In this document: positions 10,846-21,559 of the stretch, in pieces
Layout: the number at the start of each line of letters is the position of its first letter
Position numbering within the stretch: position 1 is the stretch's first letter
From: Streptococcus oralis
GTDB lineage: Bacteria; Bacillota; Bacilli; Lactobacillales; Streptococcaceae
DNA: 64,000 nucleotides
Reading direction: 5' to 3'
Assembly: GCF_021497945.1 (NCBI RefSeq)
Contig: NZ_CP046524.1
Span: 717,501-781,500, forward strand
Notes under the pieces: generated by a model
What the model was told of the DNA's origin: nothing
The model's input: only the letters and a program-made list of their open reading frames with translations
Database searches by the model: none
Made by a program: the position numbers and the translations under genes

Positions 10846-11322
10846 ATGATTGGAAAGAACATAAAATCCTTACGTAAAACACACGACTTAACACAACCCG
10901 AATTTGCCCAAATTATAGGAATTTCTCGAAATAGCTTGAGTCGTTATGAAAATGGAACTAGTTCAGTCTCTACGGAGCTAATAGACATCATTTGTCAAAA
11001 GTTTAATGTATCTTATGTCGATATTGTAGGAGAAGACAAAATGCTTAATCCTGTTGAAGATTATGAACTGACTTTAAAAATTGAAATAGTGAAAGAAAGA
11101 GGTGCTAATCTATTATCTCGACTTTATCGTTATCAAGATAGTCAGGGAATTAGCATTGATGATGAATCTAATCCTTGGATTTTAATGAGTGATGATCTAT
11201 CTGACTTGATTCATACGAATATCTATTTAGTTGAAACTTTTGATGAAATAGAGAGATATAGCGGCTATTTGGATGGAATTGAGCGCATGTTAGAGATATC
11301 TGAAAAACGGATGGTAGCTTAA
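10846..11322 (+). CDS. pezA: PezA antitoxin, XRE-family repressor
   Basis: 158 residues, the usual PezA length. Residues 1-65 are an XRE helix-turn-helix (LTQPEFAQIIGISRNSLSRY) that binds the operator; the C-terminal half forms the helical domain that neutralises PezT. AAAGGAG precedes the ATG. The stop overlaps the pezT start (TAATG), giving coupled translation. PezAT stabilises pneumococcal ICEs and islands by killing or arresting cells that lose them. A decayed second copy lies at 16125-16400. Confidence 0.93.
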   Translation: MIGKNIKSLRKTHDLTQPEFAQIIGISRNSLSRYENGTSSVSTELIDIICQKFNVSYVDIVGEDKMLNPVEDYELTLKIEIVKERGANLLSRLYRYQDSQGISIDDESNPWILMSDDLSDLIHTNIYLVETFDEIERYSGYLDGIERMLEISEKRMVA

Positions 11323-12074
11323 TGGAAATCCAAGATTATACTGATAGTGAATTCAAACATGCTCTAGCACGGAATCTTCGTTCTCTGACAAGAGGAAGAA
11401 AGTCCAGTAAGCAACCTATAGCGATTTTGCTTGGAGGGCAAAGTGGTGCTGGCAAGACTACAATTCATCGTATTAAACAGAAAGAATTTCAAGGAAATAT
11501 TGTTATCATAGATGGCGATAGTTTTCGTTCTCAGCATCCACACTATTTAGAACTGCAGCAAGAATATGGCAAAGATAGTGTAGAATACACCAAAGATTTT
11601 GCAGGGCAAATGGTAGAGTCTTTAGTAACAGAATTGAGTCATTTGGGATACAATCTTTTGATAGAGGGAACTTTACGAACGATTGATGTTCCAAAGAAAA
11701 CAGCACAACTCTTGAAAAGTAGGGGATATGAAGTACAATTAGCCTTGATTGCGACAAAGCCTAAGCTGTCCTATCTGAGCACCCTTATCCGATACGAAGA
11801 ACTATACGCTATCAATCCAAATCAAGCACGTGCAACTCCAAAAGAACATCATGATTTCATTGTAAATCATCTAGTTGATAATACACGGCAATTGGAAGAA
11901 CTAGCTATCTTTGAAAGAATTCAAATTTACCAACGAGATAGAAGTTGTGTATATGATTCAAAAGAAAATACAACTTCAGCAGCAACCGTTCTTCATGATT
12001 TACTATTTGGAGAATGGAATCAAGTGGAGAAAGAGATGTTGAAGGTGGGGGAAGAAAAATTGAGAAAATTTTAA
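11322..12074 (+). CDS. pezT: PezT zeta-type toxin, UDP-GlcNAc kinase
   Basis: 250 residues, close to the ~253 of characterised PezT. The P-loop GGQSGAGKT places Lys45 in the expected position, and Asp66 (IIDGDSFR) matches the known catalytic base. Zeta/PezT toxins phosphorylate UDP-N-acetylglucosamine and so poison peptidoglycan synthesis. No frameshift or missing catalytic residue is visible, so the toxin should be active and held by PezA. It overlaps pezA by one base. Confidence 0.93.
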   Translation: MEIQDYTDSEFKHALARNLRSLTRGRKSSKQPIAILLGGQSGAGKTTIHRIKQKEFQGNIVIIDGDSFRSQHPHYLELQQEYGKDSVEYTKDFAGQMVESLVTELSHLGYNLLIEGTLRTIDVPKKTAQLLKSRGYEVQLALIATKPKLSYLSTLIRYEELYAINPNQARATPKEHHDFIVNHLVDNTRQLEELAIFERIQIYQRDRSCVYDSKENTTSAATVLHDLLFGEWNQVEKEMLKVGEEKLRKF

Positions 12075-12122
12075 TCAGTCATGTTTTATGTTAATATCAA
12101 ATAGAAAGAATAGGTGAAAACT

Positions 12123-12401
12123 ATGGAATTAAGAGCAATATTAGGAAAAGAATTTGAGGGGATTGTTATAGAGTTTCAAAATAGAGGAATAATATTTGAA
12201 GGTCAATTTAAAATAATGACTTCAATGTTTTGTAAGAAATATTCAACGGAGTTCTGTAAATTATTGGAAAAGGAAACAGGATTGAACGTGTGGTATGGTT
12301 ATCAGGTTCCTTATTTTTTCTATTACGATAGTGAAAGGTACGATAAAAAAACAGCTTCTCTTGTTGCAGAAGAGTACCAAATTAAAAAAGGGAATTTGTA
12401 A
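12123..12401 (+). CDS. Small unknown cargo protein with WYG motif (first of three)
   Basis: 92 residues from the ATG at 12123, preceded by AGGTG; an in-frame GTG at 12114 is an alternative. The C-terminal half reads KLLEKETGLNVWYGYQ, similar in spacing to KISRLLIERNYWYGKR in the next gene, so the two may be distant paralogs. There is no membrane segment. It lies directly downstream of pezT in low-GC DNA typical of cargo. Function unknown. Confidence 0.5.
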   Translation: MELRAILGKEFEGIVIEFQNRGIIFEGQFKIMTSMFCKKYSTEFCKLLEKETGLNVWYGYQVPYFFYYDSERYDKKTASLVAEEYQIKKGNL

Positions 12402-12458
12402 TAATTTCCGTAGAGGAGTTATAAAACAGTAAATATTTATTATGAGGTTGCAGATTAT

Positions 12459-12671
12459 ATGGGCAAAGTAATGAGACAATATAATGAATTTTATATAAAA
12501 TTGCAAAAAGAGTTTAAACTGGCTCATAATATGACCATAGAAGCTATGCCAGCAAAATTTTCCAACAAAGATTATGTTAAAAAATTTACTTATATGTTTC
12601 CTGATAAAATTTCTAGACTGTTAATAGAAAGAAACTATTGGTATGGTAAACGTATTATTAAAAAAATTTAG
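12459..12671 (+). CDS. Small unknown cargo protein with WYG motif (second of three)
   Basis: 70 basic residues. It shares a WYG tripeptide and a preceding Leu-rich helix with the gene just upstream, suggesting a tandem duplication. The ribosome-binding site is weak (GAGG, far from the ATG). It is possibly a fragment of a longer protein. No function can be proposed. Confidence 0.4.
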   Translation: MGKVMRQYNEFYIKLQKEFKLAHNMTIEAMPAKFSNKDYVKKFTYMFPDKISRLLIERNYWYGKRIIKKI

Positions 12672-12691
12672 TTAAAATTCAGAGTAAAAGG

Positions 12692-12898
12692 ATGTCTTTA
12701 GAAACTAATGATTTTATTCTTGAAACATCTAAATATATAAGAAGACGAGTAAGAAAAAATATTTCGAGTATTGAAGAGAGAAAAACTCAGGCAGATGAAA
12801 TTCGAAAAAAATCTTTAGCAAAATTAAAGCTGCAAACTATAATGGGAAGATTTACTCCATTTTCTTCAGGAATTGAGATTTTGCCCATCTCTTTTTAA
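12692..12898 (+). CDS. Small basic unknown protein (third of three)
   Basis: 68 residues, strongly basic and helical in the middle (Arg/Lys-rich, ~20-50). AAAAGG lies immediately before the ATG at short spacing. It is the last of three small same-strand ORFs between pezT and the invertible cassette. The following 195 bp to the recombinase gene are AT-rich with no recognisable feature. Confidence 0.35.
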   Translation: MSLETNDFILETSKYIRRRVRKNISSIEERKTQADEIRKKSLAKLKLQTIMGRFTPFSSGIEILPISF

Positions 12899-13094
12899 TA
12901 TATTTAAGGATACTTGAAAGTTATATTTTAGAAAAACAATTATGGAGTTCTTAATACGGAATATAGTATAAATGCTGATTTAAAGTGGAGTTTTGTATGC
13001 TTTTTACTTTTGTTGAGTATAAAATCTATTAACTTAAGTCGAACTACAAACATTAATTTAAGATGAAGTAAACTGTAACCTTCGGAAATGTCTC

Positions 13095-13991
13095 TTACTC
13101 GATTTCAGAATGAATCACTGACATAGGATTGAAAGAACTAAGTATTTCTTTTTGTTTTGAATGAGATACGTGAGTATAGATTTGTGTGATTGATATAGAA
13201 CTGTGTCCAAGAATTTGTTGAATATATCGAATATCTACATCATTATCTAGAAGCATTGTTGCAAAGCTATGTCTAAACATATGTGGTGTAATAGTTTTAG
13301 ATAAGCTATTTTGTTCAACGATTTTCTTTAAAATTAAACGTACACTTTGCTCTGACAATGGTTTAGGCGAATATTTTCCTGGGAATAGGAAATCATTAGA
13401 TTCCTTTCCGTTTTTATTTATATATGTTTCTAATAAATTGAAGGTTGTTTGATCTCCTAAAAATAGGATACGCTCTTTCTTACCTTTTCCTATAATATGG
13501 AGTGTCTTATTGGAAAGATTAATATCTTTGAGATGAATGTGACAAAGTTCAGAAATTCTGATACCTGTTGAAAGTAATAGGGAAATAATTAGTAGATTTC
13601 TTTCAGCTTTTTGTTTTTGATAGTCAGTTTTAGATATAACTACTCTCTGCTCTAAATATGAAAAAATATTTTTCAGAATATCATACGGAATCGTTTTAGG
13701 CAATATTTTTTCAGTTCTAAATTGAAAGCGTAATTGATTGAAGGGACTCTCTTCAATTATGTGCTGGTATTTTAGATAATTATAAAACACCTTTATACAA
13801 GCAATTTTTCTTCTTAATGTATTCGTTTTTATGTTAGATTGTGTCAACTCTTCGATATAGGATTCGACATTATCATAGTTTGAATTATAAAATTGCATAA
13901 GATCATTCTTATAAGCTCGAATCGTGTGTGAACTCAAACGCTTATGAGTTTTGCAATAATCTAAGTAAGTAGAAATAAGTTTATAATCCAT
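13095..13991 (-). CDS. XerD-like tyrosine recombinase, probable invertase of the adjacent cassette
   Basis: 298 residues from the ATG at 13991, which is preceded by AAAGGAG on the minus strand. An N-terminal SAM-like core-binding domain (~1-90) precedes a catalytic domain with STGIRISEL (first Arg), KGKKERI (Lys on the beta-hairpin), HMFRHSFATML (His/Arg) and LGHSSISITQIYTHVS (His and nucleophilic Tyr), so the catalytic set is complete. Its 5' end is 56 bp from a 27-bp inverted repeat that recurs in reverse 1.74 kb away. By analogy with recombinases beside hsdS switches it most likely inverts that segment. Its own promoter (minus-strand TATACA, 17 bp, TATAAT) overlaps the repeat. Confidence 0.85.
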   Translation of the reverse strand: MDYKLISTYLDYCKTHKRLSSHTIRAYKNDLMQFYNSNYDNVESYIEELTQSNIKTNTLRRKIACIKVFYNYLKYQHIIEESPFNQLRFQFRTEKILPKTIPYDILKNIFSYLEQRVVISKTDYQKQKAERNLLIISLLLSTGIRISELCHIHLKDINLSNKTLHIIGKGKKERILFLGDQTTFNLLETYINKNGKESNDFLFPGKYSPKPLSEQSVRLILKKIVEQNSLSKTITPHMFRHSFATMLLDNDVDIRYIQQILGHSSISITQIYTHVSHSKQKEILSSFNPMSVIHSEIE

Positions 13992-14046
13992 AAAAATCTC
14001 CTTTATCAATAATCATGCTATTATAAACCTATTTGAGTGCTTTGTA

Positions 14047-14073
14047 TAGTGATAATAAATTGTTATCGGTAGG
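14047..14073 (+). repeat. Left inverted repeat of invertible cassette (27 bp)
   Basis: It is an exact inverted copy of 15786-15812. Inside it GATAA and TTATC face each other across 7 bases, the layout of a tyrosine-recombinase core (two arm-binding half sites around a 6-8 bp crossover). The inner end, GGTAGG, continues as the ribosome-binding site of the gene at 14084. Confidence 0.9.
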
Positions 14074-14083
14074 AGAAACAAAA

Positions 14084-15067
14084 ATGAATAACCTGTATCT
14101 TGAAAACAACTACAAAATAAAATTAATTAAGTCATCTTCCGATATTGACTATGCCGATTCTCTTAAAATTTATTCAAGAGTAACCCCTTCTGACATCATA
14201 ACGAATACAAACGAACTAACATATTGGTTAGATAATAAAACTGAAGGGTTTGATAGTTACTTTTTCTCTCTTTTCTTAAACGATCAAAATATAGGTTTAG
14301 CAATGTGCACTTATTTAAGTTCTGTTAAAACAGTTGTAATTGAATATATAGCCGTTGAGGATGGATACAGAAAAAATAATACTTATCTTAGTTATTTAAA
14401 TGAATTAAGAATGTATATATCGAATTTGTTAGAAGTTACTTATTTCATCTGTGAAATTAGTAATAAAAATGACGGAAGTGAAATTGATGATGAGAGTAAA
14501 ATTTTTAAGATTATTTTATCAATAGAAAATTTTTTTACAGTAGATGCTGTCTACCATACACTACCTTTAGGTATTAACAATGAGTTTAGTAGCTTTGAAG
14601 CAAGATTAATGATTAATTCAAATACTAATATAAAGACTATTTCAAAAGATACTTATATAAGAATTATCCAATCTTTATATTTTGAATACTATGTAAAATG
14701 GTATGAACATTTTTTTAGTGAAAGTGAGAAACTTCAATACATTAATCAAATTCAAAATACTTTTACTGATTTAAAAAATAACCTTGTTGCTTTATCTGAA
14801 CCATTGCAGTTTATTGAAGTTAATAAAGATAAAATCAAAAGTGCAGGTAATATTGAGAAGCTACCTGCATCAAAAAAGAAACTAAACAATGGTTTAATTT
14901 CAATGTTTATATCAATTGTCGTCTTTCCAATTATTATTGTTTCTTATTATAAAATATTTAATGTTTTTGGAATTGATACAAGTACAAATTTTACTCCTAT
15001 AATTGGTGGAATTTCTAGCATAATTGTTAGCATACTCCCGTTCTTACTAAAAAAAGATAATGTCTAG
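14084..15067 (+). CDS. GNAT acetyltransferase-like protein with C-terminal membrane anchor
   Basis: 327 residues from the ATG at 14084, preceded by GGTAGGAG from the inverted repeat; an upstream in-frame TTG at 14033 is less likely. Residues ~10-160 resemble a GNAT N-acetyltransferase (…VVIEYIAVEDGYRKNNTYLSYLNELRMYI, split here as strand then acetyl-CoA-loop-like helix), though the classic Q/RxxGxG/A loop is degenerate. Residues ~265-285 and ~300-318 are hydrophobic, so the protein is probably anchored with the catalytic part in the cytoplasm. It converges on the methyltransferase gene. No substrate can be named. Confidence 0.55.
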   Translation: MNNLYLENNYKIKLIKSSSDIDYADSLKIYSRVTPSDIITNTNELTYWLDNKTEGFDSYFFSLFLNDQNIGLAMCTYLSSVKTVVIEYIAVEDGYRKNNTYLSYLNELRMYISNLLEVTYFICEISNKNDGSEIDDESKIFKIILSIENFFTVDAVYHTLPLGINNEFSSFEARLMINSNTNIKTISKDTYIRIIQSLYFEYYVKWYEHFFSESEKLQYINQIQNTFTDLKNNLVALSEPLQFIEVNKDKIKSAGNIEKLPASKKKLNNGLISMFISIVVFPIIIVSYYKIFNVFGIDTSTNFTPIIGGISSIIVSILPFLLKKDNV

Positions 15068-15783
15068 TGAATTTTAGTACATTTCAAAATTATATTACTA
15101 GAACAGTTTCGGATTCCTGGAAAAAATTTAAAAATCTTATCTAGTCCAGTGAACTTTGTTGCAAAATCGTAGTTATTTGTTATTCTCAGAATGATAGAAC
15201 TTATTATATGAAATTGCTGTTTTTTATTAATTTGAAGTCCTTGTGATTTCAATAAATTTTCAATATATTTTATAGAAAAGATCCAATTACGATGTCTAGT
15301 CTTTAAGTAATCCGTTTCAATTATAGAGACGGATTTTTTATACTTATTACTTCCAAAATACTCAAAACTATTGCTAGGTTCAAATTCTAAATATAAAGTA
15401 CCATCAACTTTTAACACACGTTCAAATTCACTAATCACTTTGCTGGCATCACAATAATTTATCACAGAGCCTACACAGATAATATGATTAAAGTACTCAT
15501 CGATAACAGGAATATTCTCTATATTTCCAATAATTTTGTTAGAAATTGTACTTAATGTTTTTTCAGCAATATCCATATGGATTGTGTTCCCTGATAGCCC
15601 GTAAGTATTCCCTCCTGATCCTGCATTTAGAATAATTTCCTCATTAGAAAAACTACAATTTTTCTGTAAAAATAATTTAATTGACTTATTCGTATATCTA
15701 TACCAACTGTTATACCAGATAACTTCATGTTCATTATAAAACTTTTCTATTTCAACTAAATCTACTTTATCATTCACTTTCAA
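15064..15783 (-). CDS. SAM-dependent methyltransferase (class I)
   Basis: 239 residues from a TTG at 15783 (a GTG at 15777 is an alternative), with GGTAGGGA from the inverted repeat as ribosome-binding site. Motif I appears as ILNAGSGGNTYGL (~residue 52), the acidic residue of motif II as HMDIA (~70), and NHIICVGSVINYCD with LKVDGTLYLEFEPS matches motifs IV-VI of class I methyltransferases. The C-terminal ~60 residues may set the substrate. In the present orientation it follows a good extended -10 outside the right repeat, so it is probably the expressed gene. Confidence 0.7.
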   Translation of the reverse strand: MKVNDKVDLVEIEKFYNEHEVIWYNSWYRYTNKSIKLFLQKNCSFSNEEIILNAGSGGNTYGLSGNTIHMDIAEKTLSTISNKIIGNIENIPVIDEYFNHIICVGSVINYCDASKVISEFERVLKVDGTLYLEFEPSNSFEYFGSNKYKKSVSIIETDYLKTRHRNWIFSIKYIENLLKSQGLQINKKQQFHIISSIILRITNNYDFATKFTGLDKIFKFFPGIRNCSSNIILKCTKIH

Positions 15784-15785
15784 TC

Positions 15786-15812
15786 CCTACCGATAACAAT
15801 TTATTATCACTA
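15786..15812 (-). repeat. Right inverted repeat of invertible cassette (27 bp)
   Basis: This is the exact reverse complement of 14047-14073, including the GATAA/TTATC half sites. On the minus strand it runs directly into the start of the methyltransferase gene. Confidence 0.9.
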
Positions 15813-15820
15813 GTATACCA
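15812..15820 (-). promoter_or_regulatory. Extended -10 promoter facing into the invertible cassette
   Basis: On the minus strand TGG-TATACT lies immediately outside the right repeat. No clear -35 is visible, as is usual for extended -10 promoters. Transcription would start within the repeat and read the methyltransferase gene as drawn, or the acetyltransferase-like gene after inversion. The left repeat has no equally good promoter pointing inward. Confidence 0.55.
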
Positions 15821-15830
15821 TAAAGTCATT

Positions 15831-16424: not shown

Positions 16425-18494
16425 ATGAAGTTAACAAAAGTAATTATTAATAATTTTAGATCATTCGGTGAAAGTCAAATTATTGAATTAAACAATCAAA
16501 CTGTACTGATTGGGAATAATAGTTCGGGAAAAACAACTGTATTACAAGCATTGAGTAAGCTGTTTTCGGACAAACAAAATGATAGAATAATTAAAAAAAG
16601 TGATTTTCACCTTCCAAAAGGTTCAAGGCCCGGAGAAAATACTAGAAACCTCTTTATAGAAACTATTTTTGAGTTTGATGAACTTGATGGAACTCCCTAT
16701 AGTCCAGCAATTCCATCGTTTTTCGAACACTTTACAGTTTCTAAAGATGGTGCCAAACCATTTCTACGAATCAGGTTAGAATCTTCTTGGGAAGATGATG
16801 GAACAGTTGAAGGAAGTATTGATACTCAATTCTATTATATTTCATCTGATGAAGATACTATTAGAGATGAAGACAAACATCGTGCTCCTAGAAAGGATTT
16901 GGATAAAATTAGGGTACTTTATGTACCTGCTTCAAGAACGCCTGAGAAGGAGTTGGGTAATGCTTCAGGTAGTATGTTAAGTAGGTTGGTAAATAGTATA
17001 AATTGGACCGAAGATGAGATAAATGAAATTACAGATAAAATTGATGAGTTGAATAACACCTTTTTATCTGAAAATGGAGCATTGAATCAGATCAACAATG
17101 AGATTCAGAAGTCATGGGAATTATATCATGAAGATAACCGTTTTTCTCAAGCAGAGTTGATTATTAATTCTTCTGAGATGGCGGCAGCACTTAGACAGAT
17201 TGCCTTAAAATTTTCACCAACAACCACTGAAGAAGCATTTACAGTTTCAGATCTAGGAGATGGACTGAGATCTATTTTTTATTTTTCACTTGTTGATTCG
17301 ATACTTGATATTGAGTTAGAAATTACCAAAGACCGTGAAGAAAATCCTAATAATCCAAGATTTAAGTTGATTCCACCAGTACTAACTATCCTAGCAATAG
17401 AAGAACCAGAAAATCATATTGCTCCACACCACATTGGAAAACTGATAAAAAGGTTTAAGCAATTAGGCAATAATGACAACTCTCAAGTAATTTTAACGTC
17501 ACATTCTCCAGCTATTGTAAAAAGAATTGACCCAGAAGATTTGAAGTATTTAAGAATAGAAAATAATGACAGAGTTCTTCAAACCATTGTTTCTGATATA
17601 CAGCTACCTCTAGCTATAGATGAATCTTATAAATATATTAAAGGAGCAATTCAAGCTTATCCTGAACTATATTTTGCGAAGTTAGTAGTTTTAGGTGAAG
17701 GCGACAGTGAGGAACTGCTATTACCAAAGTTTTTTGATTTACTTGGGAAAGAGGTAGATAGCTCTCAGATTTCAATTGTCCCTTTAGGGGGCAGACATGT
17801 CAACTATTTTTGGAAATTATTGAATGCTCTCAGAATTCCTCATATTACCTTGTTGGATTTTGATAATGAGAGATACGGAGGTGGTTGGGGAAGAATAAAA
17901 TACATTTCTCAACATCTGTATGAGCTGAACACAGAGTTTCAAGAATGGTTCAATACTCAGAGACTTGATTTTAATGAAATTGGGTCACGAGGTTGTGAAT
18001 CGATAGGAGCTCAACGTCTGATTAATTGGTTTAATAAACTCGAAGAATTTAATGTCTACTTTTCATCGCCTTTAGATATTGATTTCTTGATGCTACAACA
18101 TTATAAAGACAATTATCTGAATACTTTATCCCCAATAGAAGGACCAGTTGTTTCATATAATGATTCGGATGGAAGTAGTAAAAAAGTGAAATTGAGTGAT
18201 TTAGACTGTCTTGATAGATTGCAGTTAGAAGGTTTCAACAAACGTAAAGAGGAAGCAATAAGAGCTACTTTAAAAGATAAGAGTGGGTCAGGTGATAGTT
18301 TTACTGAAGAGGAAAAGAAACTCATGATTTGGTATCAATATTTCTTTTTAGGTAGAGGAAAACCAACAACTCATATGCAATTTTTATCATCTATTAGCGA
18401 TGATGAATTAACAAGAAATCTACCTCCTGTGTTTGAAAAAATGGTTAAACGTGCTGAAGAATTACTTGGAGATATTGAACATGATGAGGAGTGA
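16425..18494 (+). CDS. gajA: Gabija GajA: OLD-family ATPase with TOPRIM nuclease
   Basis: 689 residues; GGAG precedes the ATG. The ATPase domain has GNNSSGKTT (Walker A, residues 30-38), LGDGLRS (signature-like, ~280), LAIEEPENHIAPH (Walker B, ~323-335) and LTSHSPAIV (His switch, ~357). The TOPRIM domain follows with LGEGDSEELLLP (~422-433, catalytic Glu) and LLDFDNERYGGG (~477, Asp-x-Asp). Class 2 OLD nucleases paired with a UvrD-like helicase form the Gabija anti-phage system, in which GajA nicks DNA when nucleotide pools fall. It overlaps gajB. It is about 110 residues longer than the Bacillus prototype, mostly C-terminal. Confidence 0.85.
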   Translation: MKLTKVIINNFRSFGESQIIELNNQTVLIGNNSSGKTTVLQALSKLFSDKQNDRIIKKSDFHLPKGSRPGENTRNLFIETIFEFDELDGTPYSPAIPSFFEHFTVSKDGAKPFLRIRLESSWEDDGTVEGSIDTQFYYISSDEDTIRDEDKHRAPRKDLDKIRVLYVPASRTPEKELGNASGSMLSRLVNSINWTEDEINEITDKIDELNNTFLSENGALNQINNEIQKSWELYHEDNRFSQAELIINSSEMAAALRQIALKFSPTTTEEAFTVSDLGDGLRSIFYFSLVDSILDIELEITKDREENPNNPRFKLIPPVLTILAIEEPENHIAPHHIGKLIKRFKQLGNNDNSQVILTSHSPAIVKRIDPEDLKYLRIENNDRVLQTIVSDIQLPLAIDESYKYIKGAIQAYPELYFAKLVVLGEGDSEELLLPKFFDLLGKEVDSSQISIVPLGGRHVNYFWKLLNALRIPHITLLDFDNERYGGGWGRIKYISQHLYELNTEFQEWFNTQRLDFNEIGSRGCESIGAQRLINWFNKLEEFNVYFSSPLDIDFLMLQHYKDNYLNTLSPIEGPVVSYNDSDGSSKKVKLSDLDCLDRLQLEGFNKRKEEAIRATLKDKSGSGDSFTEEEKKLMIWYQYFFLGRGKPTTHMQFLSSISDDELTRNLPPVFEKMVKRAEELLGDIEHDEE

Positions 18495-20298
18495 AGAGTG
18501 GCATCCTAAAGGAGATATTGAATTAGAGAAGGCTGCTTTAGGAGCTGTCAAGGATGTGACCAACAGTCTAGTCATTGCTGGACCAGGTTCGGGGAAAACT
18601 GAATTACTAGCTCAAAAGTTAGACTATCTATTCTCTACAAATAAATGCATTTCTCCGAAAAAAATTTTAGCATTAAGTTTTAAGACAGACGCCGCATCAA
18701 ACTTGAAAGAAAGAGTGAAAAAACGGTATGGTGAGGAGTATGCTTCTCGATTTACCTCTTTAACCTATTCAGCATTTGAAAAGAGAATTTTAGATCAGTT
18801 TAGAGATGCCCTCCCTGAAGATATAAGACCAGCAAGAGACTACCTGATTGATGATTGGGATGTTATAAAAGAAACACTTTATGAAAATGACATTAATGTT
18901 CATGGGATGAGAATGTCAGATATAAGAAGATATGTCGAAAACATCATACTTAACAATGGGGATAATCACAAGTTTAAAACTGACTTACTAAAAGGAACAC
19001 AAGATAATAAGCCGGTCCTCTTGTATAGGCAAATAACAAAGTTGAGTACTCAAATAATAGATACTAACGAATACATCCGTAAAGCACTTCAAATGACATA
19101 CGATTTTGTATTTCTAGATGAATTTCAGGATACTACATATGCCCAGTATGATTTATTAAAAACTTGTTTTTTAGGTTCGTCTTGTAAATTAACAGCAGTT
19201 GGAGATGATAAGCAAGCCATTATGAGATGGGCAGGTGCAAAGCCTGATATTTTTCCAGACTATATTCGAGACTTTAATTCAAATGAATATCAATTGTTGA
19301 TGAATCATCGCTCTGTACCTAAGCTTGTAGAATTTCAAAAAGAGGTTCATCAGATATTAAATAGTAATCACAGTTCTATTCAGACAAATAATTATCCAGA
19401 ATTTCAAGAGGGTGAAATAACATTATTTGAATTTGAAAATGAAAGTTTAGAAGCTAAGTTAATTGCAAATGATATAGAATCAAAAATTCAAGGAGGTATA
19501 CGACCATCAGAAATTTGTATCCTAGCAAAACAAAAGGTTGGTATTTATAGTTTCGAATTGATATCTATATTAAATAGCAAAGGGATTAAAGCAAGAATTG
19601 AAAATGAATATCAGGATATTTTAAAAGATCCTACGTGTAACCTATTATTAGATTTAATATCATGCAGTCAAGGAAAACGAGATCCTTTAATTTGGGAAAA
19701 TATTAGTAATTTTTATGGAAATATCAATGGAATAGATGAGTTAACTGATGAATTAATTTTAGCAAAATCCTATAAGGAGATTGACAATATAGTTAGTGAT
19801 ATTACTTACCTAATTTCAAATTTTATTCCCAATGAAGAAAGTATGCTAAAATTAATTGATTGTATTATTGAAAAAATAGATGAAAAAAGAATTATTTCCA
19901 ATTTTTCAACATACAATGGAAAAAGTGACCTAGATATCATTGTCAAGAACTTTTCAAAGATATTATACATAGAATATTCTCAAACACAAGGTGAATGGCT
20001 AGATACAGTCTCTAGTTTCAAGGGTGAAAACTCAATTCCAATTATGACTATCCATAAGAGTAAAGGATTAGAATATGAGGTAGTCTATTTTCTAGGCTTG
20101 GAGGATTCTGCATTCTGGAGTTTTAATGATCAGCCGGAAGAAGATAAAAGTGCATTCTTTGTCGCACTTTCAAGAGCAAAAAGTCACTTAATATTCACAT
20201 ATTGTAAATTGAGAAATAATAGTCCGCAAAATAATAGAAATATTAATGAGATATATTCATTGCTGACTCAATCCAATTTAGTTAATGTTATTAATTAA
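18481..20298 (+). CDS. gajB: Gabija GajB: UvrD/PcrA-like superfamily 1 helicase
   Basis: 605 residues from the ATG at 18481 (ATG at 18484 also possible), overlapping the gajA stop by 14 bp, so the two are translationally coupled. Superfamily 1A motifs are complete: AGPGSGKTE (I, ~34-42), FLDEFQD (II, ~211-217), GDDKQAIMRWAGA (III, ~241), MNHRS (IV, ~277), TIHKSKGLEYE (V, ~523) and FVALSRAKSHL (VI, ~561). In Gabija, GajB senses DNA ends and works with GajA to block phage. It ends at the terminator at 20307-20351. Confidence 0.85.
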   Translation: MMRSEEWHPKGDIELEKAALGAVKDVTNSLVIAGPGSGKTELLAQKLDYLFSTNKCISPKKILALSFKTDAASNLKERVKKRYGEEYASRFTSLTYSAFEKRILDQFRDALPEDIRPARDYLIDDWDVIKETLYENDINVHGMRMSDIRRYVENIILNNGDNHKFKTDLLKGTQDNKPVLLYRQITKLSTQIIDTNEYIRKALQMTYDFVFLDEFQDTTYAQYDLLKTCFLGSSCKLTAVGDDKQAIMRWAGAKPDIFPDYIRDFNSNEYQLLMNHRSVPKLVEFQKEVHQILNSNHSSIQTNNYPEFQEGEITLFEFENESLEAKLIANDIESKIQGGIRPSEICILAKQKVGIYSFELISILNSKGIKARIENEYQDILKDPTCNLLLDLISCSQGKRDPLIWENISNFYGNINGIDELTDELILAKSYKEIDNIVSDITYLISNFIPNEESMLKLIDCIIEKIDEKRIISNFSTYNGKSDLDIIVKNFSKILYIEYSQTQGEWLDTVSSFKGENSIPIMTIHKSKGLEYEVVYFLGLEDSAFWSFNDQPEEDKSAFFVALSRAKSHLIFTYCKLRNNSPQNNRNINEIYSLLTQSNLVNVIN

Positions 20299-20383: not shown

Positions 20384-21559
20384 TTATAGTGGGTTATCAA
20401 GATATGTTTTTTGAAAACTTTTCAATAACCTAACTAAGTTTAATTCAGTTAGATTTACTTGATTTTCTTGGATACTATAATCAGGATTTTTATGTCTAGC
20501 TTTTTTATAGTAAAAATCGAAATCTTTTTCTGTAACTTCAAGTTGCTTCATTATCTCTTCTGTTGAAAAATTACTTTTTATTAAGTTGTGAGTCTTTTCT
20601 AATTCTATTTTATCATCATAAATTACTATATTATTTTTAAATCTATCTAAAGGATATTTTTCGAGACCAGATATTGAAGAGAAAACTTTCAGCAATTGGT
20701 ATTTTAAAGTATTTTTGTATAAACAGTGGTAATAAATAGTGTCAGAATAACCACATTCAAAATCTTCTAAATCAGGGGAGGGCACTAGACAATTTCCCTG
20801 ATCTAAATACAAAGCCATAAAGTCGATAATTGTAAGGTGTCGATAACGAAGTTGTACTAATTGCCAATCAACATTGGTTTGGTATTGATTTAAACTATAA
20901 GGCATAGTTTTGAAACGATTTGCATCATCGTCGGTAAGTTTAATATAAAAATCGGGATTAGGATTATAAATAAAAAATCTTCCGTCTTCATTTTCAACGA
21001 AGAACCAATTTTTATAGTCTTTTAAAACATGAAAATATTGCTCTTTGATATTTAAGTCGGTATGATTAAACTTTTGAAACAACTTATTTATTAACTCAAA
21101 TGGAGCAGAGGAGTCTTTAGGAGTATTTATAGAGCCATTTCTAGCATATATTAATCCTTTTTGTAATGCAGTATCTTTCTTAGGCTTATAATCTTTTGTT
21201 AAAAATACAGGAACTTTATCTGTATCATGAATAATTAAGATGTCAATTTCTTTGTTGTCTATAGTTTCAGTTTGTATGCTAATTCTAATTTGATTATTTG
21301 TTGATGTAAAGAGTTTATGTAGTAAATCTGTTAGATCTTCTTCATTTCTTCTATTATCATCATTTTTTACACCGATTATATCTAAAGTGATATTATCAAT
21401 TCCAAAGATGATATAACAATCTTCGTGATGTGATGTATTGACAAAATTTAAGATATCACGCACCAATTCAGTTTTTGAATGATGCCATTTTTGTTTAAAA
21501 TCATGAAACTCATCTTCGGGAGTATTCAATAGTAAATGTATTTGATCTAGACTCAGCAT
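20384..21559 (-). CDS. AlbA_2/Schlafen-like putative DNA- or RNA-binding protein
   Basis: 391 residues; GGAG precedes the ATG. The N-terminus (EDEFHDFKQKWH…LVRDILNFVNT…YIIFGID, residues ~15-60) is typical of the AlbA_2 (Schlafen-type, often annotated ATP-binding) domain, with the conserved E/D-F-K segment near residue 20. The middle and C-terminal ~230 residues match nothing I recognise; the last ~60 look helical with an LxxTExDFDFYYKKAR segment. It is monocistronic and convergent with Gabija. AlbA_2 proteins occur in phage-defence loci, so a defence role is possible but not shown. Confidence 0.7.
   Translation of the reverse strand: MLSLDQIHLLLNTPEDEFHDFKQKWHHSKTELVRDILNFVNTSHHEDCYIIFGIDNITLDIIGVKNDDNRRNEEDLTDLLHKLFTSTNNQIRISIQTETIDNKEIDILIIHDTDKVPVFLTKDYKPKKDTALQKGLIYARNGSINTPKDSSAPFELINKLFQKFNHTDLNIKEQYFHVLKDYKNWFFVENEDGRFFIYNPNPDFYIKLTDDDANRFKTMPYSLNQYQTNVDWQLVQLRYRHLTIIDFMALYLDQGNCLVPSPDLEDFECGYSDTIYYHCLYKNTLKYQLLKVFSSISGLEKYPLDRFKNNIVIYDDKIELEKTHNLIKSNFSTEEIMKQLEVTEKDFDFYYKKARHKNPDYSIQENQVNLTELNLVRLLKSFQKTYLDNPL

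Follow-up and report, generated by a model that had tools for sequence, protein, structure and literature searches.

In phages Mu and P1, the G and C segments carry alternative tail-fibre genes that are inverted by Gin and Cin. Integrons comprise a tyrosine recombinase and promoterless cassettes, which are exchanged at recombination sites and expressed from an outside promoter, and the genes of the Thoeris immune system usually form one operon. Here we analyse a cassette of two convergent genes, bounded by inverted repeats (the arms) and adjoined by a tyrosine recombinase gene, in a 64,000-nucleotide (nt) stretch of Streptococcus oralis DNA (contig NZ_CP046524.1, positions 717,501 to 781,500 of the forward strand; this whole stretch is referred to as the window). 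We consider it likely that this cassette belongs to a family of invertible, exchangeable cassettes with a promoter-controlled expression switch and site-specific replacement of the cargo.

The likeness to Mu G and P1 C lies in an invertible segment with two opposed alternative gene sets, an outside promoter and a recombinase gene next door; those systems use serine recombinases and related tail-fibre genes, whereas here the recombinase is of the tyrosine type, the two genes are unrelated and the cargo varies from locus to locus. As in integrons, a tyrosine recombinase accompanies promoterless cargo that is exchanged at recombination sites under a promoter outside, but instead of an array at attI with folded attC sites the loci read hold a single cassette flanked by two fixed inverted arms, with inversion and two convergent units. 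Some relatives of the cassette (cargo type E and loci L191 and L222, described below) encode SIR2 and TIR proteins as Thoeris does, their genes being convergent in an invertible cassette and not in one operon; the cargo of the window is not Thoeris. A streptococcal tyrosine recombinase that inverts DNA between inverted repeats is described for Streptococcus pneumoniae, where, according to the excerpts of PMC7096588 and PMC4948785, PsrA recombines hsdS and alters methylation specificity, whereas here whole two-gene, non-hsdS cassettes would flip under a fixed promoter. The inversion by PinQ in Escherichia coli, as covered in the excerpt of PMC12529663, is also tied to phage resistance, but it involves a serine recombinase, a cryptic-prophage segment and an effect on adsorption. 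The nearest published statement comes from the same excerpt, namely that recombinases often neighbour anti-phage genes and that their function in defence is unknown (PMC12529663). No description of the cassette family was found in the open-access PubMed Central literature, among the matches listed.

The cassette of the window and its boundaries comprise the following elements:

13095..13991, minus strand: Xer-like tyrosine recombinase, 298 amino acids (aa) from an ATG start (Phage_integrase, 152.4 bits; Phage_int_SAM_1, 41.8 bits).
14020..14048, minus strand: probable recombinase promoter, TATACA-17-TATAAT, with 10 of 12 consensus matches in a scan; its -35 touches the left arm and it is conserved in the alignment.
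14047..14073, plus strand: proximal arm (recombinase side), perfect 27-bp inverted partner of 15786-15812; predicted recombination site and half of a ribosome-binding site.
14084..15067, plus strand: GNAT-fold protein of 327 aa from an ATG start, its C-terminal tail helical, in this orientation directed away from the conserved promoter.
15064..15777, minus strand: class I methyltransferase, 237 aa from a GTG start (Methyltransf_11, 31.3 bits; cut-off 21.2), in this orientation beside the conserved promoter.
15786..15812, minus strand: distal arm, perfect 27-bp inverted partner of 14047-14073.
15812..15822, minus strand: putative extended -10 promoter TATGGTATACT directed into the cassette, its last T being the first base of the arm.

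The arms, 27 nt each and 100% complementary, are spaced 1,712 nt apart and enclose exactly two convergent genes whose stop codons overlap, an arrangement that a preliminary description of this DNA had proposed and that the repeat search and gene calls bear out. A chance repeat is ruled out, since no perfect inverted repeat longer than 16 nt arose when the same 8 kb was simulated 60 times with a dinucleotide-Markov model. Beyond these two, no further copies of the arm were found in the window's own 1.94-Mb genome, among the matches listed. The start given by the gene-calling tool for the GNAT-like gene, a TTG at 14033, precedes the arm, and the ATG at 14084 was adopted. The recombinase gene starts 55 nt outside the left arm, and its product has the catalytic domain and the conserved Arg, Lys, His, Arg, His and Tyr of tyrosine recombinases: Arg145, Lys169/Lys171, His237, Arg240, His263 and Tyr272, which we take to be the catalytic residues, are invariant in 10/10 aligned homologues. 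It had been called XerD-like; its position just outside the repeat and its class stand, but that name is loose, as a housekeeping XerC or XerD is ruled out by NCBIfam scores below both cut-offs (223.6 against 335.15 for XerC and 208.8 against 329.6 for XerD). Against phage records, the stretch that encodes the recombinase gave only two matches, both partial.

In a DNA search of the genus, 76 of 284 genomes gave a match at E ≤ 0.001; many of these matches span only about 140 nt of the recombinase and were not counted as cassettes. Sixty regions were fetched, 49 of which contain the recombinase and both arms at no more than five mismatches; in these, as in the window, the inverted sites lie beside the recombinase gene, as in a DNA inversion switch. 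Adding the window and four plasmid loci out of five (L094 was left out, being identical to L093 over 18,979 nt) gives 54 streptococcal loci, which fall into ten cargo types, the pair of the window being one of them:

Type A: polyprenyl synthetase and membrane-like protein.
Types B and H: large ATPase/TPR-like protein and SHMT-like enzyme.
Types C and F: large protein without Pfam match and ATP-grasp.
Type D: ThsB-like TIR, caspase and two proteins without Pfam match.
Type E: ThsA SIR2-STALD protein and TIR.
Types G and W (W is the window): GNAT and methyltransferase.
Type I: 1,014-aa protein without Pfam match and glycosyltransferase 2.

The large proteins of types B, H, C and F may tentatively be called STAND-like, because the matches of B and H to AAA/nSTAND fall below the cut-off and the proteins of C and F are only weakly similar to those of L190 and L194. 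The type D loci L039 and L046 have no TIR and caspase genes. Cargo frames are broken in L053 and L062, which are too few to gauge the decay of a silent gene.

The same segment exists in both orientations. In the pair L042/L043, a 3,522-bp cargo is 100.0% identical and inverted between 1-kb flanks that are both 100% identical, the left arms differing at one inner base. The cargo is likewise inverted in L034/L035 (cargo 99.8%, flanks 99.9 and 99.8%) and in L058/L059 (cargo 100%, flanks 100 and 97.5%). The gene pair of the window itself is flipped on the Streptococcus salivarius plasmid pSAL813 (L093), at 85.2% identity over 1,698 bp reversed; here the recombinase-side flank is 96.2% identical and the right flank is unrelated. 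Both orientations were found for 8/10 streptococcal cargo types, the types E (five loci) and I (two loci) being found one way only. The preliminary description, which had predicted an invertible cassette and would have fallen had all homologous loci shown one orientation, is upheld on this point.

It had missed a second property: to judge from the comparisons of loci, the pair of the window belongs to a larger set of interchangeable cargoes, which includes immune modules, and the change from one cargo to another falls exactly on the arms. Different cargo types occupy nearly identical surroundings in 14 locus pairs (100-nt flanks, at least 98 and at least 95%), where the identity stops 0-6 nt inside the arms; L049 (type B), for instance, has flanks 100 and 97% identical to those of the window, and L057 (type C) and L061 (type E) share flanks of 100% identity over 200 nt. 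At one S. salivarius plasmid locus, the place of the cargo is taken variously by types W, A and B. Conversely, 24 locus pairs share their cargo while both flanks are below 90%, with an outward identity of only 5-11 nt, as in L061/L072, whose cargo ends are 100% identical next to 60-nt flanks of 81.7 and 65%. The cargo is thus replaced precisely at the recombination sites, as in integrons. Among 1,376 comparable pairs, which are not independent events, 205 have recombinase flanks at least 95% alike and cargo types that differ, and in 36 the likeness of the cargo exceeds that of the recombinase flank by 10 points or more. Site-specific exchange of cassettes, with the recombinase as its probable agent, is the natural reading of the breakpoints. 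It is unlikely that homologous recombination moves the cargo instead, the arms being merely the last sequence common to the loci: streptococci are often naturally transformable and some exchanged loci retain a left flank that is 79-89% alike over 100 nt, but 27 bp is short for RecA-type exchange, the outward identity stops within the few nucleotides given above, and in 23 of the 24 pairs a cargo that is 95-100% identical adjoins right flanks that are only 35-61% alike (89% in the remaining one).

The arm is a near-symmetrical GATAA-spacer-TTATC sequence, the columns 5-20 of which are identical between both arms of the locus in 54/54 loci. Spacer base 15, an A in 31 loci and a T in 23, is concordant between the arms in all 54, which occurred in 0/100,000 shuffles that do not control for relatedness. 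The outer column 3 differs between the arms in 12/54 loci, and in L034/L035 an outer-half variant stays with the distal flank even though the cargo has flipped, as a crossover inside the arm predicts. These invariant cores, together with the conserved catalytic residues and the flipped pairs with identical flanks, speak against a static relic, in which the repeats would be ancestral, the recombinase would now serve something else and flips would be rare accidents. Decayed forms, namely recombinase fragments without arms in L075, L087 and L089 and a degraded second arm in L037, would fit such a relic, which we nevertheless regard as highly improbable. In draft assemblies, 4/83 arms (in L090, L092, L128 and L135) lie 3-27 nt from a contig end, which may reflect coexisting orientations but also other causes.

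The inward extended -10 outside the right repeat, another element of the preliminary description, is present: distal flanks end in TATGGTATAC followed by a T that is common to the arm (15822-15812 on the minus strand of the window), or in a close variant, and T-10, T-8, G-7, T-5, A-4, T-3 and C-1 are kept in 12/12 dereplicated distal flanks. At the recombinase side, no conserved inward promoter is seen in the alignment, and a candidate at the left arm (TATAGT) was rejected, as the conserved bases fit the -35 of the recombinase's own promoter and are absent in L088. A weak divergent promoter may lie there. The flanks of that side dereplicate to only two and therefore give no independent test. 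A promoter scan found no excess of sites (20, compared with 25.5 in shuffles, standard deviation 5.7). As also proposed before, each gene takes its ribosome-binding site from its repeat, in that the Shine-Dalgarno sequence spans the arm end, GGTAGG being given by the arm and the rest by the first inner bases, which read AGA in 93/108 cassette ends. At the methyltransferase end of the window (15783-15786) GGTAGG is followed by GATTG, while L033 has an extra A (AGATTG), and the site of the window looks weaker.

In the proposed mechanism, the Xer-like recombinase would act on the two inverted arms, and recombination between them would flip the convergent two-unit cargo under the fixed extended -10 that abuts the distal arm. 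The unit beside the distal promoter would be strongly expressed and the other one weakly or not at all, so that in the orientation of the window the methyltransferase would be up and the GNAT protein down, and the reverse on the S. salivarius plasmids. Since the conserved extended -10 touches the distal arm, inversion probably swaps the strongly expressed gene. As the site is common to all arms and the cargo has no promoter of its own, a foreign cargo could also replace the resident one through the arm sites, and this cassette exchange would account for the many cargoes at one type of locus, several immune modules included.

The cassette plan recurs in 14/41 loci examined with distant recombinases. 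Among the first 29, nine have the arms and the two-gene plan (L142, L143, L189, L190, L191 and L193-L196), L142 and L143 coming from metagenome-assembled genomes of Lachnospiraceae, and among a further 12, five have the cassette (L217-L220 and L222), with three genes in L218 and L220. Inverted pairs are found here as well (L193/L195, 96.2%; L194/L196, 99.1%). An ATP-grasp and a large partner are encoded in L189, L190, L193 and L194 and, by similarity, in L195, L196 and L217-L220, and SIR2 and TIR proteins in L191 and, by similarity to it, in L222. The pair of the window reappears in L143, whose GNAT and methyltransferase match those of the window at E 3e-16 and E 1e-35, respectively, and lie between arms of only 17 nt. 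In 13/14 of these loci, the exception being L217, the cassette lies at the 3' side of the recombinase gene, which reads towards the proximal cargo gene. No cassette was found at 20/29 and 7/12 loci, several of which lie at region or contig edges; three of the 20 have nothing more than repeats of 15-16 nt and lack the two-gene plan, and other recombinases without a cassette could be Xer proteins of the housekeeping kind. Next to the Lachnospiraceae cassette of L142, a 1,030-aa SIR2-domain protein (11889-14981, minus strand) gives a weak PADLOC match to LmuA (92.4 bits).

Regarding the cargo, Thoeris, with a SIR2-STALD/SLOG effector and a TIR protein, is recognised in type E (STALD 144.9, SIR2_2 102.1 and TIR_2 52 bits; PADLOC ThsA 509.6 bits), in L191 (ThsA 324.1 bits) and, by similarity only, in L222. 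The type D locus L058 (5637-7005) encodes a ThsB-like TIR (24.3 bits) and, after it, a protein with a caspase domain (75.2 bits), possibly a caspase-type relative of Thoeris. The SIR2 gene is on the side of the distal arm in 7/7 Thoeris-like cassettes (L061, L066, L069, L070, L072, L191 and L222), in contrast to the mixed orientation of most other types. Thoeris is understood to need both of its proteins, acting together. Its presence in five streptococcal loci, L191 and L222 favours an alternative in which neither gene is ever silent: the distal promoter would serve one and weak divergent transcription from the recombinase side the other, so that inversion would shift only their ratio, in keeping with the needs of a two-part immune system. 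The ribosome-binding site that both genes have at the arm and the direction of the recombinase gene in 13/14 distant loci are compatible with this account, but the recombinase side offers no conserved inward promoter and its conserved bases are those of the recombinase -35; we regard it as possible without favouring it. Mutually exclusive expression, which the preliminary description had proposed, is only inferred, the single conserved distal promoter arguing for it and the Thoeris cargo against its strict form. In Thoeris, according to the excerpt of PMC13232231, an enzyme makes a signal and a partner acts, and by analogy the other cargo pairs might be read as an enzyme and an effector.

Several observations weigh against a family of switching and exchangeable immune cassettes. 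Inversion could be rare and slow, because most of the flipped pairs come from different genomes. A complete arm pair is missing in 11/60 fetched regions, several at contig ends (L037, L041, L044, L052, L075, L085, L087, L089, L090, L091 and L092). Lacking a good -35, the distal promoter is absent from the output of the simple -35/-10 scan, and among the distant loci a -10 next to the distal arm could be clearly discerned by eye in just 5/14 (L142, L143, L217, L218 and L222). The dependence of Thoeris on both proteins argues against strict mutual exclusion, and the Thoeris-like type may be held in one state, for which its orientation bias is only a hint because five of the seven cassettes are close relatives. 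Strong PADLOC matches are limited, among the cargoes tested, to those with SIR2, TIR and caspase, and in the window PADLOC assigns no family to the GNAT protein, the methyltransferase or the recombinase; therefore, we infer rather than observe immunity for the other cargoes, the pair of the window included.

The GNAT-fold protein has no match in Pfam or NCBIfam, and none of its relatives in the genome contigs was confirmed under a name. Its description as acetyltransferase-like is supported by a structural model, built from four sequences and of poor confidence (predicted local distance difference test, 54.9): the best Foldseek match is 3ey5 (E 3.6e-7), the best 50 PDB matches are all acetyltransferases, and the order of strands and helices fits a GNAT fold, with helices at the C-terminus.

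The cassette of the window is flanked by a toxin-antitoxin pair on one side and a defence system on the other:

10846..12074, plus strand: pezA-pezT toxin-antitoxin pair adjoining the recombinase (PezT, NCBIfam 486.6 bits, cut-off 470; PezA, Epsilon_antitox 115.7 bits).
16425..20298, plus strand: Gabija directly beyond the distal arm (GajA, 16425-18494, and GajB, 18433-20298; PADLOC 1104.9 and 749.4 bits).

Neighbours like pezAT and Gabija recur at cassette loci, and CBASS-like ones were recognised by eye only. Beyond Gabija, an AlbA/Schlafen-domain protein (20384-21559, minus strand) matches the PADLOC phage-defence candidate PDC-S50 with 402.2 bits.

Since relatives hold the cassette flipped or replaced by other gene sets, including known anti-virus genes, the comparison of loci suggests that these cassettes act as a plug-in switch for bacterial immunity genes, whether in anti-phage defence or in another conflict. 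More speculatively, and with considerable doubt, they may represent an unrecognised class of cassette machine across Bacilli and Lachnospiraceae, in which a dedicated Xer-like recombinase would maintain a single exchangeable slot between the arms, take in two-part immune modules of other strains in an integron-like manner and flip them to separate the expression of a signal-making enzyme from that of its effector. A dangerous system would in that case be active in a fraction of the cells only, or only shortly after inversion, and the pairs with ATP-grasp, SHMT-like, polyprenyl-synthase or glycosyltransferase enzymes, like the methyltransferase/GNAT pair, would represent new immune systems with a Thoeris-like organisation. 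If the proposed mechanism is true, a single small device would make the immune genes of streptococci and related bacteria hot-swappable as well as phase-variable, and this would help to explain the turnover of defence repertoires at fixed sites and the tolerance of risky two-part systems. An assembly would record one orientation only, and the apparent presence of a system like Thoeris may not mean its expression. Whatever sits between such arms would be a candidate new system.

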